Source: a virus. From it: 62,151 nt of DNA. Shown here one piece after another: positions 1,924-62,151 of the stretch. The stretch lies in IMG/VR virus record IMGVR_UViG_3300049203_000084, positions 1 through 62,151 of that record; one strand, given 5' to 3'. Under the pieces are notes generated by a model. The model worked only from the letters and a program-made list of their open reading frames with translations, did no database searches and was not told the DNA's origin. Each line of letters starts with the position of its first letter. Positions within the stretch are counted from its first letter, which is position 1. Position numbers and translations under genes: made by a program.

Positions 1924-2859
1924 TTAGCCGCCGAAGATGTTTGCGCCGATTTTGGAACCGGCAGCTTCCTGAAGTTCCTCAGAGCCGTTGCCCTTGAACT
2001 CCTTGCCGGATTCCTCGATGACGGTCTCCAGGTACTTCTTCTCGGCGGAAATGGCCTCGGCCAGTTCGGTGCCGGATTCGACAGCTGCGATGACCTTGGC
2101 GTGAGCAGCCTTGGGCAGCTCGGCTTCGACCAGTGCGCCTGCAATCTCGGCGGCGGACGGAGCCTTGGGCTCGTCCTTCTTGGCAGCTTCGGTCAGGGCG
2201 TCAGCCTTGGCCTTGTCTTCCTTGTCGGCGCGCTCCACGAGAGCGGCGAGGGCGGTAGCGGTCTGCTTGTTGCTCTCAACGAGAGCGTCCAGGGCATCCG
2301 TAAATTCCTTGGGGAGTTCCATGATGTCTTCTTTCTTTTGGGACTCTGCAACACTCTCGGCAGCAGAATTTTCTCGGGCTGATTCCAGCAATTTGTCGAA
2401 GCCTCCACCGGCCCCGGCAGTTGTCACCACGTCCACCGAGGTAACGGAGGTGAACGCCTTCAGCACGGGGCCGTCAGCGGTTTCCTCCACATCGCCCGAG
2501 GCGCGGATCGACATTCCGATCACGCCTGCCTCAGCGAGTTCCTTGATTTCCTGCTGGTGCTTGGTGAAGAACCGAACGTTGGCGTAAAGGTCATTGCCAT
2601 CAAATTCGGAATCGGATTCAAAGACGCCCACAATTTCCTTGTAGGAACGCTCGGGGCGATTCCACTTTTCGTCCATCGTGGGGTGGTCACCATAAACGCG
2701 GGTGCCCTTGGCGAACAGGTTGGCCCCGGCCTCCACCACTTCTTTGGGGTAATAGGCCGAGGAGCCTCTGCGGTTTCCCTCGATAACCTTGACACGCCAA
2801 ACAGCGCCGGTCAGAGAGTCAGCGGAAATTTTGCTGGCTTCAAATAGCTCTTTGGGCAT
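1924..2859 (-). CDS. Capsid maturation protease fused to scaffold
   Basis: About 311 residues from the chosen ATG, which has GGAG 6-7 bases upstream; an ATG 15 bases further up (2874) lacks a good site. The N-terminal half looks like a prohead protease: a GDHP motif supplies a likely catalytic His, and a GMSIRASG segment a likely catalytic Ser. The C-terminal part is Ala/Glu/Lys-rich and predicted helical, as expected for scaffold. An internal in-frame ATG at 2322, preceded by AAGAAAGAAG, could make the scaffold alone, as in lambda C/Nu3. The position between portal and capsid genes fits. Catalytic residues are inferred from motif position only. Confidence 0.75.
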   Translation of the reverse strand: MPKELFEASKISADSLTGAVWRVKVIEGNRRGSSAYYPKEVVEAGANLFAKGTRVYGDHPTMDEKWNRPERSYKEIVGVFESDSEFDGNDLYANVRFFTKHQQEIKELAEAGVIGMSIRASGDVEETADGPVLKAFTSVTSVDVVTTAGAGGGFDKLLESARENSAAESVAESQKKEDIMELPKEFTDALDALVESNKQTATALAALVERADKEDKAKADALTEAAKKDEPKAPSAAEIAGALVEAELPKAAHAKVIAAVESGTELAEAISAEKKYLETVIEESGKEFKGNGSEELQEAAGSKIGANIFGG

Positions 2860-2882
2860 TGAAACTCCATTCATCTATGTCA

Positions 2883-2942: not shown

Positions 2943-4568
2943 TCAGCGTTTGTCCTGCTGCGCGTCCTTGCGGTACGAGTTGTCACCGTAGGACTTGGCC
3001 GTCGAGGCGTCCTTCTTCACCTTTGGACCCTTGCCTCCAGCGGGCAGGGCCTTTGGCCCCGGAGTTCCCGGCACACCACCAGCGGGCTTCTCCTTGGCCA
3101 GCTTCTCGGCGTGCTCGGCTGCCTTCTCGGCAGCCTCGGCCTGCATCTTGGCTTCAAGGATCAGGTTGCCCAGCTCCTCCTCGGTGGGCACCTTCTCGGG
3201 GTCCAGGGTCTGCAGGTCGAGTACCTTGACGATGAGCTTGCGCATCTCCTTGTCCGAGAACAGGTTCAGCGGCAGCAGCGAGACAATCGACTGAATCTGG
3301 CGGTAGACGGCCTCTTCCTCGATCTTCGGGAAGATGACCTTCACGTCGAAGCCGAGGTAGTTGAAGATCGCCTCGAAGAACATCTTGTGCTCCGACTGGC
3401 GGGCGCGCATGACCTTCTCGTTGGAGCCGGTCAGCGTCTCAGCCGAGGCGCGGTTGGCGTTCCCGGCGTCGGCGGTCAGCTCGTTCAGCGGCACGTTCAG
3501 GCCAGCGGCGACGTAGCCCGCCAGCGGCAGGCCAGCCTCGAAGTCCACGGAGCCGCCCGTGCGGCCCACCGAGGAGATGGTGGCACCCATGCCGGTGACA
3601 GCGGTTGCACCCACGGACTGGGGCTGGCCGGTCATCGGATCGAGCGTGGGGCTCGTGGCCACCTTGGTGGCAGCAGCCTTGGCGTTGGCAGCCGTGGGGG
3701 TGGCCACCTTCCAGGCGAACCGCGAGTAGGCCTTGACCAGCGTGGCCTGCGACTCCAGAAACTCCTTGTGCGCCTTGGCCCAGAAGATCACGCTCAGCAG
3801 GTCAGGCACACCCCACTTCCAGCCAGCCTGCTTGTTGACGCTGTGGCCTGCGATGCGCTGGTCCAGAATGACCGGCTTGCCCTTGAAGCGCCGGGGCCTG
3901 CCGTTGGACTCGTCATAGTCGATGGCCGGGTAGTAGGCCACCCTGTCCTCAACCTTCTCCTCCACGGAGTTGGCCTTGGTGACGGTGACCTTCCACTCGC
4001 GGCGGTAGAACCAGATTTCCTCCGAGTTCTCGGGGTTTGAAATCGTTCCGGTGATCTGCCGCATGGGGATGCGCGCCACTGCGCCGGTCTTGGACTTGGC
4101 ACCGGGCTTGGTGACCATCAGGAAGAAGTTGCCGTCCGTGCCAAGGCACTGCTCCAGCTCCTGCCACGCCTTGTCCGAGAGCAGGTACTTCTGGTTGACG
4201 GGGTTCTTGACGAACTCCTCGTGCTCCTCCAGCCCTTCAAGGATGACGCCGTTGCCCCAGATGTAGGCCGTGCGCACCGCGAGACCCCGCTTGATGAGGG
4301 GGTTGATGACCGCGAGAGCCCGAGTGACGTTGGTGTAGCCCTTGATGGCCGACAGCGGCAGCTCGTTCATGTCGGCGTCTTCACCGAGCGGACGCCAGCC
4401 GATGTTGTCCAGCGCCAGCTGCACGTCGGCCAGCGACTCGGCCAGCTCGATGACCTTGCCGGACAGGGCCGCGTTGGCTGCCGTCACCTCGGCCAGCTCG
4501 GTCGATGTCGGAGTTCCTGCCGCCTCCGAGACTGCCACCTGCTGGCGCGCTGCACGTTTCCTGGACAT
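2943..4568 (-). CDS. Portal protein
   Basis: A 541-residue protein expected to form the dodecameric ring at the capsid vertex through which DNA enters and leaves. Assignment rests on size, the central region rich in aromatic/charged portal-like segments, an Ala/Lys/Glu-rich C-terminal tail, and the order terL-portal-protease-capsid. The start at 4568 is chosen because TTTAGGAG precedes it at good spacing; a longer reading to 4619 lacks a site. An extended -10-like box lies at 4610-4618. No truncation is seen. Confidence 0.8.
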   Translation of the reverse strand: MSRKRAARQQVAVSEAAGTPTSTELAEVTAANAALSGKVIELAESLADVQLALDNIGWRPLGEDADMNELPLSAIKGYTNVTRALAVINPLIKRGLAVRTAYIWGNGVILEGLEEHEEFVKNPVNQKYLLSDKAWQELEQCLGTDGNFFLMVTKPGAKSKTGAVARIPMRQITGTISNPENSEEIWFYRREWKVTVTKANSVEEKVEDRVAYYPAIDYDESNGRPRRFKGKPVILDQRIAGHSVNKQAGWKWGVPDLLSVIFWAKAHKEFLESQATLVKAYSRFAWKVATPTAANAKAAATKVATSPTLDPMTGQPQSVGATAVTGMGATISSVGRTGGSVDFEAGLPLAGYVAAGLNVPLNELTADAGNANRASAETLTGSNEKVMRARQSEHKMFFEAIFNYLGFDVKVIFPKIEEEAVYRQIQSIVSLLPLNLFSDKEMRKLIVKVLDLQTLDPEKVPTEEELGNLILEAKMQAEAAEKAAEHAEKLAKEKPAGGVPGTPGPKALPAGGKGPKVKKDASTAKSYGDNSYRKDAQQDKR

Positions 4569-4609
4569 GAAACTCCTAAAGTCAATGCTGAGAACCAGCG
4601 ATGACTCCA

Positions 4610-4618
4610 ATTCTATCA
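4610..4618 (-). promoter_or_regulatory. Putative extended -10 (TGATAGAAT) before portal
   Basis: Read on the minus strand the gap between terL and portal contains TGATAGAAT, matching an extended -10 (TGnTAnAAT), 41 bases upstream of the portal ATG. The following bases (TTGGAG..ATCGCTGG) closely resemble those after the same box at 50084-50092. Confidence 0.45.
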
Positions 4619-4656
4619 AGTCATGCTTTATTGCCTCTTGACTAAAGGCTTATCGA

Positions 4657-7899: not shown

Positions 7900-7911
7900 C
7901 TCGCTCAGGAG

Positions 7912-29002: not shown

Positions 29003-29286
29003 GCAAGTCCAAGGCGTTCCTCCAGCTGATCGCAGACAACCCACCACCTTGCAAGACCATCGGTGACCCCGAGCTGTTCTTCCCGAGCTACGCCGAGGGG
29101 AACGAGTTTCAGGTCAAGCAGGCCAAGGCAGTGTGCCGGAAATGCCCGCTCACCACCCAGCTTGGCTGCCTGGAGTTCGCCTTGGACACCGATGACCAGT
29201 TCGCAGTGCTCGGCGGCACCACCCCCGCCGAGCGCACCATCATCAAACGCCGCCGAGAAGCACAAGAAGGGAGGCTGGCAGCATGA
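28999..29286 (+). CDS. WhiB-family Fe-S regulator
   Basis: Ninety-five residues with the four Cys of WhiB proteins (PPPCKTIGDPELFF, then VCRKCPLTTQLGC) that hold a [4Fe-4S] cluster, followed by the turn VLGGTTPAERTIIKRR equivalent to the G-V/I-W-G-G loop and basic DNA-contact segment. WhiB-like genes are known in actinophages, where they change host transcription and can block superinfection. It is limited to Actinobacteria and their phages, so it supports the host class. Confidence 0.88.
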   Translation: MSKSKAFLQLIADNPPPCKTIGDPELFFPSYAEGNEFQVKQAKAVCRKCPLTTQLGCLEFALDTDDQFAVLGGTTPAERTIIKRRREAQEGRLAA

Positions 29287-30074
29287 CCACGACAGCACTG
29301 GAGACGTTCACCGAGGCGGATGTCACGGCAGCGTTCACCAAGGGCTTCACCCGGCAGTCCGAGCGCGACAAGCAGGTCAAGATCGGGCCGTCAGAAATCG
29401 GCGGCTGCACCTACTGCGTCGGCTACACGATGGCCTCGAAGCTCTGCGAGATGCCCAGCCGGGATGACGGCTTCGGCTACGCCGCCTGGATCGGGACGAT
29501 GGCCCACTTCTGGCTGGAGCAGAATCTGGTGCTGGAGCACCCCGTCACCGGGGAACCGCTGGACACCCTGCGCGAGCACAAGGTGAGCGTGTTCGACATC
29601 CCGGACTACGGCACCATCAAGGGCCACCTGGACATCTACACCCCGGCCTTCCGGGAGACGGGCGACTACAAGTTCCCCGGCAAGTATTCGCTGGAGAAGC
29701 TGCAGACCTCGCTGGCCAAGCGCCGCAGGGCTCTGAACGCTGGAGACCTGGAGGAGGCAGCCAAGTACGGCCCCAGCCTCCAGTACCGCTACCAGCAGCA
29801 GCTGTACGCCCACGGACTCATCCAGCTGGGCTACGAGGTGGAGCGGTGCCGCATCATCTTCCTTCCCCGGCACACGAACGACATCCGCGATGTCATCCAC
29901 TGGGTGGAGCCCTACCAGCCCGAGATGGTGGAGAAGGCTTTGGCCCGCACCATCCTCATCTGGGAGTACGTTCAGGCAGGCCAGCTGGGCGAACTGCCTT
30001 CGGATGATGACTGCTACTCCTGCGACCGCGTGGGCCGTGGCGACCTGACCAACTACAACGAAACACTCAACTAG
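29283..30074 (+). CDS. Cas4/RecB-like exonuclease
   Basis: A 263-residue PD-(D/E)XK nuclease. GHLDIY and GDYKF supply the active-site D...D/E-x-K; YRYQQQLYAHGLIQLGY is the typical QxxxY helix. Cys pairs at the N-terminal (GGCTYCVGY) and C-terminal (DCYSCDRVG) ends suit a Fe-S cluster. It probably makes ssDNA ends for recombination with the ATPase and ssDNA-binding protein that follow. Confidence 0.85.
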   Translation: MTTTALETFTEADVTAAFTKGFTRQSERDKQVKIGPSEIGGCTYCVGYTMASKLCEMPSRDDGFGYAAWIGTMAHFWLEQNLVLEHPVTGEPLDTLREHKVSVFDIPDYGTIKGHLDIYTPAFRETGDYKFPGKYSLEKLQTSLAKRRRALNAGDLEEAAKYGPSLQYRYQQQLYAHGLIQLGYEVERCRIIFLPRHTNDIRDVIHWVEPYQPEMVEKALARTILIWEYVQAGQLGELPSDDDCYSCDRVGRGDLTNYNETLN

Positions 30075-30083
30075 GAGAACATC

Positions 30084-30941
30084 ATGACAACCACAGACAT
30101 TGACCCCGATGAGGCCCTGGCAGCCCTTGCAGCCGAGGCTGAGGCAGCCGAAGAGAAGCCCGTCAAGAAGGCCGTGGCCAAGAAGCCCGCTCCCACCAAG
30201 GACTTGTTCGACCTGTCCAGTATCCCCGGCGTCAGCATCGGCGCACCGCGCGAGATGACCTCCAAGTTCAGCATGATGCTGTACGGCGGCAAGGGCGTCG
30301 GCAAGACCTCGCTGCTGGGTGATTGCGCCAACGTCCCGGCATGGGCTCCCATCCTCATCCTCGCCACCGAGGACGGCTCCAGTGTGCTCCACCGGGACTA
30401 CGCCGACAACCCGCTGGTGCGCGTGGTGAACATCGAGGACTGGGCTACTGCGGCCCCGCTGATCCAGGCAGTGGCCGAGAACGAGACCATCTACAAGACG
30501 GTGGCCATCGACACCCTGCCCGAGCTGCAGGAAATCAACAAGCTGCACATCACCAACGAGGGCCAGAACGAAATGCGCATCCAGGACTGGGGCACGCTGG
30601 CGGACAACACCATCAACGTGGTCAAGATGCTGCACCGCTCGCCCTACGTCAACGTCATCTTCACGGCCCACGTCGAAAAGGTCCAGGACGACGCAGGCAA
30701 GGTGCTGTACTCGCCCTACCTGCTGGGCAAGAAGTCCCTGCAGGAGGCCATGAAGCCCATCGACATCGTGGCCTACCTCGCCGTCGTGCAGGACAAGAGC
30801 ACCAAGGAAAGCATTCGTGTGCTCCAGGTCCACCCCGATGGCAAGTTCGACGCCTCGGACCGCTCCGGCAAGCTGCAGGGGCAGTACGTCGATCCCCACA
30901 TGATCGACCTCTACACGGATTTGATGGCCGAAAACCAGTGA
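30084..30941 (+). CDS. RecA-like (Sak4-type) recombination ATPase
   Basis: A 285-residue protein with Walker A YGGKGVGKTS near residue 75 and a Walker B-type TVAIDTLPEL. The Ala/Lys-rich N-terminal tail (about 1-45) is probably disordered. Its place between nuclease and ssDNA-binding protein fits a phage single-strand annealing or strand-exchange set. Confidence 0.8.
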   Translation: MTTTDIDPDEALAALAAEAEAAEEKPVKKAVAKKPAPTKDLFDLSSIPGVSIGAPREMTSKFSMMLYGGKGVGKTSLLGDCANVPAWAPILILATEDGSSVLHRDYADNPLVRVVNIEDWATAAPLIQAVAENETIYKTVAIDTLPELQEINKLHITNEGQNEMRIQDWGTLADNTINVVKMLHRSPYVNVIFTAHVEKVQDDAGKVLYSPYLLGKKSLQEAMKPIDIVAYLAVVQDKSTKESIRVLQVHPDGKFDASDRSGKLQGQYVDPHMIDLYTDLMAENQ

Positions 30942-40779: not shown

Positions 40780-41976
40780 TTATTGGCGAGTATTGCCTTC
40801 GAGCTTTTTTACGTCGATCAATTTGCCATCCTCGACGGTGAAAACGAGGAGACCGGGGGAAGACCAGATGCCCGTAATGTTGGTGAACCAGTCCGAACCG
40901 TTGTCGGCGGCAGGGCACTGGAGCCACGTCTGGTTGGCGAGAATTGTCTTCAATTGGTAGCTGTGGAAATGCCCTGAGACAAACAATTCCGCCTGCGCCA
41001 GGGCTTGTTTTCCGGCGACTTGGCCCGCAATGAATTTCGGCACACCGTCCGCATTGTTGCTCTGGTGGCCGTGGAAAAAGCCGGTGTTGAGCCCTCCAAC
41101 GTTGAGCACCAGAGTCTCGCGGTGCGTCTCGGGATAGGCGAACTTCACATGCCCGTAGGCGTCCGAATTGAGGGAGAAGGCATCCTGGACGCTGGCCACG
41201 ATGTCGAGCCCGAAGTCGGCACTCGCATTGCCCTGCGCCTTGCCGTTCTCGCGCCACTGCATGTGGTTGCTCGGGACTCCGAAGACATCCATCTCGGGGA
41301 CCATGCGCGAGAACATGTCGGCCCCGTACATGAACAGGCGGCGGGCCACCCTGATCTGCTCGGGGAAGGAGAGGTCATTGGTGTGTTTCTGGGAGGAGGA
41401 GTTCTGCGTGTTCTCGCAGGCGTCCCCGAGGTCTCCGAAGACTATCTTTGAGGCCTTTTGCAGGCGCACATAGTCTTGGGCTTGGTGGAAAAGATCGCCC
41501 ACACGATGTTCAGTATCAACCGTCCCGCCACCTGTGTGCTGAGCCTTCCCAACTTGCGGATCGGCGTAGCAGATGGCGACAGTGCGTTGACGAACACCGC
41601 TGGGACTGACGGCCTTGGGCTTGCGTTTGAGTGCTGCTGCATAGTCTCTGAACTCCCTGATCTGGTGCGTGTATGCGGTGCGGACCACCTTGAAGCGGTA
41701 GGTCCAGTTGGGCCGGGTGACGGCGAGTTCCTGATCCACGGAGTCGCGGGTCCAGGCGTTCATGTTCTTCTTGGCCTCGACCAGCTGCAGCTCGTAGCCG
41801 TCAGGGATCGGCACACCAAGGTCGGCCACGATGGCGTTGAACTCAGCCGGTGTGGTGGCTGCCGGAGCCATCGGGACCGTGATGTACTCGGGGATGTTCT
41901 CGCGGTAGGTGACGACAGCCTGCTCCTTGGGAGCGAGCGGGGCCGTGACGCTGGTCAGCGTCTCGTGCAGGCTCAA
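40780..41976 (-). CDS. Metallophosphoesterase
   Basis: A 398-residue protein from a TTG that overlaps the previous stop (TTGA). Calcineurin-like motifs in order: ICYADPQVGK, VFGDLGDACEN, VPSNHMQW, FFHGHQSNN, VSGHFHSY. Phage enzymes of this type act as DNA-end nucleases (Mre11/SbcD-like) or phosphodiesterases. It is paired with a small HTH-like gene; the N-terminal 120 residues may be a DNA-binding part. Confidence 0.8.
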   Translation of the reverse strand: MSLHETLTSVTAPLAPKEQAVVTYRENIPEYITVPMAPAATTPAEFNAIVADLGVPIPDGYELQLVEAKKNMNAWTRDSVDQELAVTRPNWTYRFKVVRTAYTHQIREFRDYAAALKRKPKAVSPSGVRQRTVAICYADPQVGKAQHTGGGTVDTEHRVGDLFHQAQDYVRLQKASKIVFGDLGDACENTQNSSSQKHTNDLSFPEQIRVARRLFMYGADMFSRMVPEMDVFGVPSNHMQWRENGKAQGNASADFGLDIVASVQDAFSLNSDAYGHVKFAYPETHRETLVLNVGGLNTGFFHGHQSNNADGVPKFIAGQVAGKQALAQAELFVSGHFHSYQLKTILANQTWLQCPAADNGSDWFTNITGIWSSPGLLVFTVEDGKLIDVKKLEGNTRQ

Positions 41977-42230
41977 AGCCCGTCCACTTCCGTGGCAGAG
42001 TTCCTGCGCCGCCATTCGGCCACGGAGCTGTCCTTGACGACATCGCGGGAGTGGCACTCTGCTCTGAGAGCCTTTGTGAGCGCCGCCGAGGAGATGTTCT
42101 CGTTGTGGAGCGCCGCCAGGAGCGTCTTGCCGTCCTCGGTGCCCTCCCACTTCTCCAGCAGGATGTCCACGCGGTTCTTTGGTGCTACGGAGTTCCCGGT
42201 GATTGCCGAGAGGGTATCGCTAAGGGCCAT
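41973..42230 (-). CDS. Small helical DNA-binding-like protein
   Basis: Eighty-five residues; start chosen at 42230 with GAGGAGCACTCA upstream. The helix pair ISSAALTKALRAECHSR / VAEWRRRN resembles an HTH. First gene of a three-gene group with the phosphoesterase and ParB-like genes. Confidence 0.6.
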   Translation of the reverse strand: MALSDTLSAITGNSVAPKNRVDILLEKWEGTEDGKTLLAALHNENISSAALTKALRAECHSRDVVKDSSVAEWRRRNSATEVDGL

Positions 42231-59424: not shown

Positions 59425-59876
59425 TACGCACCGTCCTGCTTGGAGTTGAAGCCGCAGTAGAGCGTGTGTGCCCAGTCCTCGGACGCACCGGCCCAGCCGC
59501 GCACGAACAGCTTCTCGCCCTCCATCATCGGATTCGAGCACACGAGCACGGTGAGCAGATCGTTGGACTGCCAGCGCAGGTTCTCCGGGGTGGCCTCGTT
59601 GAGTTCCGGTGCCAGCGGCAGCATCGCCTGCATCATCTGGTTGTCCGCCGAGTCGGAGACGAACTCCCGGCGCGTGGGGCGGGCGATGCGGTCCAGGTCA
59701 GCAGGCCCGAGGTACAGCAGTTCGGTCTCCCCGCCGTCGTAGTCGCCCGTGGCGGAGTTCCACTTGCCCTCGGAGATGACGCGCTCGACCTTCACGCGGG
59801 CTGTCATAGCTGTGGAGAGAACCGGCGCGTGGAAGGCTGCCCAGCCGTCAGGGAAGACCGAGGTGCCTAGTGCCAC
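59424..59876 (-). CDS. Head-tail stopper-like protein
   Basis: A 150-residue, beta-rich protein (TARVKVERVISEGKWNS, LLTVLVCSNP). The segment ETELLYLGPADLDRIARP resembles actinophage stopper proteins. Overlaps the adaptor gene by 10 bases. Confidence 0.6.
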   Translation of the reverse strand: MALGTSVFPDGWAAFHAPVLSTAMTARVKVERVISEGKWNSATGDYDGGETELLYLGPADLDRIARPTRREFVSDSADNQMMQAMLPLAPELNEATPENLRWQSNDLLTVLVCSNPMMEGEKLFVRGWAGASEDWAHTLYCGFNSKQDGA

Positions 59877-60301
59877 AGCACACCACCGTTGTTGGCCTCG
59901 AAGACATCGAAGGGCGTCACGGGGTCAGCGAAGTCCACGATGGCGAACGTCCCATCGGCAGCCTCGCCGGATTCCTCGACGGCCTTGCCGCGCGCCCGGT
60001 AGTCCTGCGCGAGCAGCCGGAGGGCGTTGGCCACAGCGGGGCCGTCCGTCTGCAGATTCTCCTTGCGGATTTTCTTGGAGACCAGCGCATCATTTGCCGC
60101 AAATGCGGTCAGCGCGTCGGCTGCGGCGAAATAGATATTGTCCCCGGCAATTGTCAGGAAGCCGCCGAGAAATTCGTCCGAGTAGTAAAACTCGGGCTCG
60201 GCAGCGGGGTTTAGCGGATCGTTCCGCAGCTGTGAGTCGGAAATGAGCAGGCGCAATTGCCCGACCGGGGTATTGGGGTCCAGGGGATTCACGTCAGCCA
60301 T
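59867..60301 (-). CDS. Head-tail adaptor-like protein
   Basis: A 144-residue, mainly helical protein of the gp6/gp15 adaptor style (QLRLLISDS at the start, then ALTAFAANDALVSKKIRKEN). First gene after capsid copy B. There is no ribosome site; TAGAAT lies 6 bases before the ATG, so it is probably leaderless. Confidence 0.65.
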   Translation of the reverse strand: MADVNPLDPNTPVGQLRLLISDSQLRNDPLNPAAEPEFYYSDEFLGGFLTIAGDNIYFAAADALTAFAANDALVSKKIRKENLQTDGPAVANALRLLAQDYRARGKAVEESGEAADGTFAIVDFADPVTPFDVFEANNGGVLWH

Positions 60302-60335
60302 ATGTCAATTCTACCGGAGCGGCTTTTTGACAAAG

Positions 60336-60382
60336 AAAACCCCCGGCGATTCTCGGGGAGCAACCGAGGGGCCGGGGGTTTT
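60336..60382. terminator. Bidirectional terminator between capsid B and connector genes
   Basis: Perfect 12 bp arms aaaacccccggc (60336-60347) and gccgggggtttt (60371-60382); on the minus strand the left arm ends in TTTTCTTTG. Only its right arm exists at the start of the window. Confidence 0.9.
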
Positions 60383-60453
60383 CACCACACACTACAGGAG
60401 GAGTAGCACCACACAAATAGGATACAGCATTTTGTTTTTGGCCGGAAATGGCA
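60356..60453. repeat. Left end of capsid unit, copy B
   Basis: Identical to bases 1-98. Divergence begins at 60454, inside the terminator after capsid copy B. Confidence 0.95.
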
Positions 60454-60489
60454 GAAGCCCCTCCGGGAAATTCACCGGAGGGGCTTCTT
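60452..60489 (-). terminator. Terminator after capsid copy B
   Basis: gaagcccctccgg / ccggaggggcttc, a 13 bp perfect stem. Both arms differ from copy A (99-134) in ways that keep the pairing. Confidence 0.85.
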
Positions 60490-60497
60490 AGTTCAGA

Positions 60498-61658
60498 CTA
60501 CGGAGTGTTGAACTGCGACGGGGCCGCAGCGCCGTTGCCCTTGGAAGCCAGGAGGCCCTGACCGTTGATGAACGCACCGGCCACAACGTGGCGCACCCGG
60601 TACTCGGCGGTGTCGTTCAGCAGCGAGCCGGAGGTTCCGGGAACCTGACCGCCACCGAGGTAGTTGCCGCCGCCACCGGAGATGCGCAGCTCGGGAGCCT
60701 CGTGGTTCTGCAGGAAGGCCACACCCAGTGCGTCACGGGTGCCGTCCTTGCCGCCGTCCGGCACCAAGTACCAAGTGGTGTCGGCGGTTGCGGACTGGTC
60801 GATGTCGGTCAGCCAGTCGGTTGCCGTCAGGGCCACGTCGGAGTTGGAGGTTCCGGCCTTGACCTTGCGGGTGCCCTCGGTGACTTCCAGCTCGCGGATG
60901 GAGAGGATGTACTCGGCCTGATCCTTCATGGCGGTGGGGACCAGCAGGCGGAACTTGGGAACCGTCACGCGGCGTCCATTGACCTTGCGGTTGCGAATGG
61001 CCTTCTTGGCGAGAACCAGCGCGTCGAGGGACAGCGGGTGCTCGGCGGTGAACAGGCTGTCGCCGGTGTTCAGGTTGCCGTGGTCAGCGTGGAAGGTTAC
61101 CGCGTTGGGGCCAGCGGTGCCTGCCAGGATGCCGTAGGCTTCCGTGTCCTCGGTGTTGGCCGCGAGGTCGAGCATCTTGCCGGGGATGGACTTGATGAGC
61201 TGCCACTCATCGTTGATGACCATTTCCCAGGTGAACGGGAACCGCGCACCTTCCTTGTAGAGCATGATGCCCGACGCGGACGTGGTGAAGCCGAAGGAGG
61301 GGTACTCCGTGCCTTCCGGGATACGCGGGAGGGAGTTCGGCTTGGTCTTGGCCCCGCCGTTCTCGTCCAGGTTCACGTCATCGTCAAGCGTCAGCTCGCG
61401 GAACCACTGCGGCTTGAAGTCGTTGAACTTCAGCTCGACAGCGAAGTCACGCCAGGACTGCGTGCGCTCCTTGTACTGAGCCTGCAGCTTCTGGGAGACA
61501 CCGATGGCGAAAGCGCCCGCGAGGTCAGAGCTGGAGAAGGATTCGGTGATGTACGCAGTGCCATCAACGAGGGCCTTGATGCGGCCCTGTGCAGCGCGGT
61601 CACCTTCAAGTGCGAAGCCGAGAATCTTTCCGGCTTCCTCGATGGTCTGGATAGTCAT
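60498..61658 (-). CDS. Major capsid protein, copy B
   Basis: A 386-residue sister of 148-1308, with the same start (MTIQTI), the same MVINDEW, PTAMKDQA and SGGGGNYLGGG landmarks, and about one quarter of residues changed, clustered around residues 50-85, 260-280 and 310-330. The frame is intact and the changes look constrained (mainly conservative), so both copies seem to be under selection. Upstream by 11 bp is decoration copy B. Confidence 0.88.
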   Translation of the reverse strand: MTIQTIEEAGKILGFALEGDRAAQGRIKALVDGTAYITESFSSSDLAGAFAIGVSQKLQAQYKERTQSWRDFAVELKFNDFKPQWFRELTLDDDVNLDENGGAKTKPNSLPRIPEGTEYPSFGFTTSASGIMLYKEGARFPFTWEMVINDEWQLIKSIPGKMLDLAANTEDTEAYGILAGTAGPNAVTFHADHGNLNTGDSLFTAEHPLSLDALVLAKKAIRNRKVNGRRVTVPKFRLLVPTAMKDQAEYILSIRELEVTEGTRKVKAGTSNSDVALTATDWLTDIDQSATADTTWYLVPDGGKDGTRDALGVAFLQNHEAPELRISGGGGNYLGGGQVPGTSGSLLNDTAEYRVRHVVAGAFINGQGLLASKGNGAAAPSQFNTP

Positions 61659-61669
61659 GTCAGCCTTCC

Positions 61670-62092
61670 TTATGCTGCGTCAGCGACAATGCCGCCGTTG
61701 AGGATTTTGACCAGCACATCGGCTACCGGGGCGGTCTTGGAACGGAGGGCCACACCGAACAGCTTGGTGCCTGCTGCGGCGGTGGAGGTCAGGGTGTTGT
61801 CGGACACCTTGATGTAGACCGGAGCGCCTACCGTGGTTGCGCCCGTGACCGGCAGGTTCGCAGAACCCTTCAGTGCGCAGGAGGCGAAACCGGGCTCGTT
61901 GCTGGATGCCGAGCCGGAAGGCTGGGTCAGGGTTGCACCGGCACCAAGGGTGATGGTCTTACCCACGGACCCTTCATCGGTGACAGTGACTACGTTGAGG
62001 ACACCAATGCGCAGAGCTTTGCCCGCGAGTGTGCCGGAGGGTACGGGAAGGGACAGGTAATCCGCTTCCTTGAAGACAAAGTTCTTTGCCAT
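61670..62092 (-). CDS. Capsid decoration protein, DUF2190-like, copy B
   Basis: A 140-residue sister of 1320-1742, colinear without gaps. The first codons (MAKNFVFKEADYLS) and the DNA upstream are identical between copies; the rest has scattered changes. It probably binds the copy B shell. Confidence 0.75.
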   Translation of the reverse strand: MAKNFVFKEADYLSLPVPSGTLAGKALRIGVLNVVTVTDEGSVGKTITLGAGATLTQPSGSASSNEPGFASCALKGSANLPVTGATTVGAPVYIKVSDNTLTSTAAAGTKLFGVALRSKTAPVADVLVKILNGGIVADAA

Positions 62093-62151
62093 TGTTCAGC
62101 CTTTCATAGCCGCTGCTGCTATTTATCAGTATACGGCATTGGAAATAAACA
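62055..62151. repeat. Right end of capsid unit, copy B
   Basis: Identical to 1705-1801, ending at the last base of the window. Contains the decoration start and the TGATAAATA box (62120-62128). Confidence 0.95.

Follow-up and report, generated by a model that had tools for sequence, protein, structure and literature searches.

Two diverged decoration-capsid cassettes at the ends of one phage contig are very probably alternative alleles on an unrolled circular assembly

Two related capsid proteins in one phage are familiar from T4, with its gp23 and gp24. Modular exchange is described in tailed phages of actinobacteria, whose related genomes trade modules at conserved borders (e.g., PMC5513430; PMC10700106), and the genus Amigovirus (Arthrobacter phages Amigo, Anansi and Molivia) belongs to cluster AQ, which is characterized by 53% G+C and 1584-base terminal repeats (PMC5513430). 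On the side of sequence reconstruction, de Bruijn assemblers lose the phase of variants that are separated by a conserved stretch exceeding k (PMC11443906).

Against this background, the window, that is, the whole stretch of 62,151 nucleotides of viral DNA analysed here, is a record consisting of a single virus contig with a decoration-capsid unit at each of its opposite ends, unit A at 1-1801 and unit B at 60356-62151. The first-pass annotation had described both units as intact, and its coordinates, gene pairs and flanks are borne out, as is its account of two colinear units with the same two genes and about three quarters protein identity (73.5% for the capsid, 81.4% for the decoration protein). 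All four genes lie on the minus strand in open frames, and their assignments come from Pfam and PHROGs matches. The major capsid genes, at 148-1308 in A and 60498-61658 in B, each encode 386 residues matching PF25209 (Phage_capsid_4) with 91.6 and 92.6 bits, respectively, at a cut-off of 27. The decoration genes, at 1320-1742 in A and 61670-62092 in B, each encode 140 residues matching PHROG 122 (head decoration) with E-values of 3.9e-8 and 4.9e-10, respectively, and the B protein additionally matches PF09956 (Phage_cement_2) above cut-off. At the DNA level, 1434 of 1807 aligned columns are identical (about 79%), with dN/dS between A and B of 0.44 for the capsid and 0.22 for the decoration gene. 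Given these ratios and the open frames, both units look functional and under purifying selection, and both versions appear to be working genes. An AlphaFold model of capsid B, built from 13 sequences, reached a mean pLDDT of only 44, a PDB profile search run alongside it returned no credible relative, and a search of capsid B against a prokaryote genome collection likewise found no relative and hence no prophage for comparison.

The borders of the units are sharp. Exact comparison shows that the left flank at A (1-98) is identical to that at B (60356-60453) over 98 bases, base 99 being the first difference, and that the right flank at A (1705-1801) is identical to that at B (62055-62151) over 97 bases. 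On one side, the identity ends inside the capsid terminator, a hairpin behind the capsid stop that can be read directly from the sequence on the minus strand (99-136 in A, 60454-60489 in B); on the other, it ends 38 bases into the decoration gene, the right flank containing the start of this gene and a promoter-like -10 element, TATACT, at about 1778-1783. The cassette borders thus consist of conserved regulatory sequence, namely the promoter-like -10 element with the decoration gene start on one side and the capsid terminator with a small-RNA-like element on the other.

The gene before the cassette encodes a head maturation protease (1924-2874, minus strand; PHROG 15531, E 2.4e-57), preceded by the portal protein gene (2943-4619, minus strand; PHROG 10963, E 1.7e-137). 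The gene after the cassette (59867-60301, minus strand) matches PHROG 18316, a family of unknown function, and is a probable head-tail connector gene by its position and by the gene order in relatives. At 60301-60330 on the minus strand, ending a few bases before its ATG, stands a conserved GGTAGAATTG, found likewise in relatives, which resembles a -10 box from which a leaderless mRNA would be made. Elsewhere in the window, a large serine integrase gene (8338-9753, plus strand) with Resolvase, Recombinase and zinc-ribbon domains lies about 360 bases from a tRNA-Ser gene (7911-7980, minus strand), so the window phage is probably temperate; with related integrases in four of five related records tested, the same probably holds for its group.

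Between the capsid and connector-position genes lies the small-RNA-like element (60327-60418, minus strand; fold z-score -4.3), which in the window contains CUCCUCC in a first, short hairpin and UUGCUCC as the loop of a second, GC-rich terminator hairpin; a promoter-like -10 element also precedes these hairpins. The second hairpin is marked by covariation: across 14 phages, the loop hardly varies, whereas each of the six inner pairs shows two-sided changes in at least one phage; 94% of cells are paired, and double changes occur in 21 cells, compared with 6.2 in shuffled data, a level that no shuffle out of 500 reached. A covariance model from these 14 phages recovered the element in three held-out contigs (E 5e-4 to 1e-3), where it sits directly before the connector gene despite at least about 2 kb of other sequence between capsid and connector. 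Copies in relatives were located at 11247-11333 of L022, 3249-3334 of L018 and 5447-5532 of L052, and in Amigovirus at 5310-5348 of L031 and 5280-5318 of L032, with the seven-base loop of the second hairpin kept as YUGCUCC, or as UUCCUCC in Amigovirus. Rfam at gathering thresholds matched only the tRNA in the window, and thus gave the element no match, while lax thresholds returned nothing at the element in two relatives; genome-wide repeats of the small-RNA motif were at chance level. The element may be a phage small RNA, whose C-rich loops could pair with ribosome-binding sites. It also bears on the contig ends. The first-pass annotation had noted that the window starts inside a terminator hairpin, and a hairpin is indeed cut there, with base 1 of the window inside the loop of the second hairpin; this hairpin is the 3' end of the small-RNA-like element and not the capsid terminator, which is a separate hairpin behind the capsid stop.

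Related phages carry the cassette once. All 27 related contigs (16 found via capsid A and 11 via a capsid profile) have one capsid match per whole record, and 20 of them, including a few near-identical to one another, preserve the complete order of protease, decoration, capsid and connector genes. Among isolate phage records with a related capsid, the match falls in a single place in 71 of 71, the closest named phages, those of Amigovirus, included, and neither in these records nor in the 27 contigs were paired units or traces of them found. A literature search for phages encoding a pair of paralogous major capsid proteins yielded nothing of use.

Instead of being added, the decoration-capsid cassette is visibly swapped by replacement between related phages. 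L024 resembles L022 in its portal (96%), in its protease (95%) and in the gene that follows the capsid gene (91%), whereas its decoration (94%) and capsid (97%) proteins resemble those of L023, a phage with a distant portal (71%) and protease (61%). In 100-base windows, the switch points of L024 fall at the decoration gene start and the capsid end, which are also the borders that delimit A and B. On either side, the alternative grouping is rejected by AU tests (capsid p 5.9e-53, protease 1.7e-8, portal 6.7e-4), with p-values that are somewhat flattering, as the groups were named after the identity tables had been seen, although the identity contrast itself is large. Similarly, L028 groups with L021 and L022 by its portal (86-88%) and with L016 and L027 by its capsid (85-87%). 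The suggestion that a capsid module is exchanged by recombination at conserved flanks is upheld in these phages, where the breakpoints coincide with both borders seen in the window. Exchange can also be confined to the decoration gene, as L021 and L022 share 92% identity in the capsid and 76% in the decoration protein. Within a set of six contigs of mostly 93-99% DNA identity, the decoration protein carries an additional in-frame segment of about 105 residues, without a Pfam match of its own, in L051 (from 3228), L052 (1605-2339) and L053 (from 574), which is absent in L054 (2347-2751), L055 and L056. L052 and L054 are 99.1% identical from just behind this insert onward and 94.5% identical before it, a second sign of exchange at the cassette.

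The kinship of the two units follows the same pattern. Capsid B is 87% identical to the capsid of L021 and 85% to that of a second phage, compared with 74% to capsid A, and the AU test rejects a capsid tree that makes A and B sisters (p=0.0034); for the decoration protein, whose tree is too short, joining A and B gives p 0.14. Taken together, the closer outside relatives of capsid B and the rejected capsid grouping indicate that A and B are not sister copies from a recent duplication in this lineage.

Contig ends within the phage group supply a further line of evidence. The end of the 58.8-kb contig G015 (L066, L067) overlaps its own start by exactly 123 bases; the 59.5-kb G018 (L062, L063) overlaps itself by 244 bases at 96.3%, the last 126 being identical; and the 60.0-kb G025 (L064, L065) does so over 376 bases, of which the first 98 are identical and a single one further on is mismatched. 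Two of these three self-overlapping contigs, G018 and G025, thus close through a sequence variant, and all three are probably complete circles although two close inexactly. The identical end runs match common assembler k or k-1 values. Closed, the three genomes measure 58.7-59.6 kb, compared with 60,355 bases (through A) or 60,350 bases (through B) for the window, about 60.35 kb; two other contigs, G009 (62.3 kb) and G002 (45.6 kb), have ends that do not close and are uninformative here. The window is the fourth and most diverged case of a self-overlapping end in this phage group.

The near-equal flank lengths had been read earlier both as an assembler signature and as favouring alleles over a tandem pair, and only the former part of this reading stands. 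In a toy de Bruijn graph of two single-allele circles at k=97, a 58.7-kb backbone and two alternative unitigs emerge, each unitig ending in a shared run of 97 bases, with A starting at window base 2 (observed, base 1). The observed flanks of 98 and 97 bases are within one base of this graph without being exactly equal, the right one being one base shorter; 98 is also k-1 for k = 99, and a 98-base identical run recurs at the end of the related contig G025. When the two units are instead joined directly in tandem, the graph contains this same pair of unitigs and, in addition, a 194-nt unitig at the junction; since both graphs produce flanks of length k, flank length does not discriminate between them. 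Among viral contigs, an exact search with 36 bases of the left flank found none, and a 35-base match to the right flank was confined to the L006 contig, so that a further contig of the window phage did not emerge; nor was one found with only A or only B on the window backbone, although very close records may not have been among those searched.

Considered together, the single units, the cassette replacement and the self-overlapping ends in relatives, along with the separate kinship of A and B, clearly favour the view, raised in the first-pass annotation as the preferred one of two options, that A and B are, very probably, alternative alleles of one exchangeable cassette in a phage population, placed at opposite ends of an unrolled circular assembly. 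The other option was a true tandem, in which one genome would carry B and then A and encode a pair of capsid proteins and a pair of decoration proteins. In its favour, neither unit is disrupted, purifying selection acts on both, and repeated flanks would also break an assembly at precisely these points; nevertheless, the tandem arrangement is an assumption, since no sequence places base 62151 next to base 1, and such a join would deprive the small-RNA terminator next to A of its 3' arm, unless further sequence that the contig does not show lay in between. The total length would moreover exceed that of the closed relatives (58.7-59.6 kb), whose wider group replaces the cassette and in no case adds one. 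With every relative in the 27 contigs and 71 isolate records having a single unit, and with A and B not being sisters, a dual-capsid phage is very unlikely. It is just as improbable that a second cassette was acquired from a relative through recombination at the borders and kept in tandem, with heads composed of two capsid and two decoration proteins.

A chimeric contig would require that A and B come from two phages differing beyond the cassette, with the assembly crossing between them through conserved stretches elsewhere. The shift of the nearest relative along the backbone, from L022 at the portal (83%) to L023 at the protease (78%) and L028 at the next gene (77%), points in that direction, but other contigs of the group are mosaic too, so mosaicism needs no chimera, and the 98 and 97 identical bases at the borders mean that the two genomes agree beside the cassette, making this reading extremely unlikely.

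Under the preferred reading of two alleles on an unrolled circle, a circular (or circularly assembled) backbone of about 60.35 kb would exist in a population with cassettes A and B at the same place, presumably in different genomes of the sample. The assembler would walk the circle once, starting with A, traversing the whole backbone, returning to the cassette position and ending with B, and at either end the contig would reach beyond the variable part by roughly one k-mer. The presence of two cassettes in the population would result from homologous recombination at conserved borders, which replaces one cassette by that of a relative, the exchange borders being the decoration promoter and gene start on one side and the capsid gene end with its terminator on the other. 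Sak4-like annealing proteins and exonucleases belong to the type of enzyme by which short regions of matching sequence are recombined, and the phage's own set, in which a Sak4-like single-strand annealing protein (30084-30941) has an exonuclease as its neighbour (29283-30074) and a second exonuclease is encoded at 40780-42150, may drive the exchange. What looked like a dual-capsid phage would thereby turn into a clear example of how a natural phage population exchanges a capsid cassette whose borders are mapped on both sides. More generally, two diverged versions of a gene at opposite ends of a viral contig can mark the overlap where a circle closes on itself across a variable region; unrolled contigs of this kind are recorded as linear, with inflated gene counts, and the three other contigs of this group with self-overlapping ends, two of them through a variant, indicate that the effect can be sought systematically.

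Compared with known systems, the window resembles the T4 gp23/gp24 pair in having two related capsid genes in one sequence. The T4 pair is, however, kept across relatives and specialised (hexamer and vertex), whereas relatives of the window phage have no pair and the decoration gene is doubled in the window as well. Amigovirus shares the order of terminase, portal, protease, decoration-like, capsid and connector genes, a capsid 46-48% identical to the window's, and a hairpin with a C-rich seven-base loop before the connector gene. In a megablast of 25 kb of the window, Amigovirus DNA was absent and the sole match was one of 53 bases to phage Bridgette, and the G+C content of the window is about 61% versus 53% in cluster AQ; the window phage is accordingly best placed in a genus-level group other than Amigovirus. 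With actinobacterial phage mosaicism (e.g., PMC5513430; PMC10700106) the locus shares module exchange between related genomes, here as a small, sharply bounded unit with decoration and capsid genes set between their own promoter region and terminator. As in strain-variant bubbles from de Bruijn assembly of mixed viruses (PMC11443906), two variants flanked by shared sequence that exceeds k in length escape phasing, and the end runs are k-sized; in the window, however, the circle puts the branches at opposite ends of one contig, and these branches are not a few SNPs but a 1.7-kb gene cassette differing by 20%.
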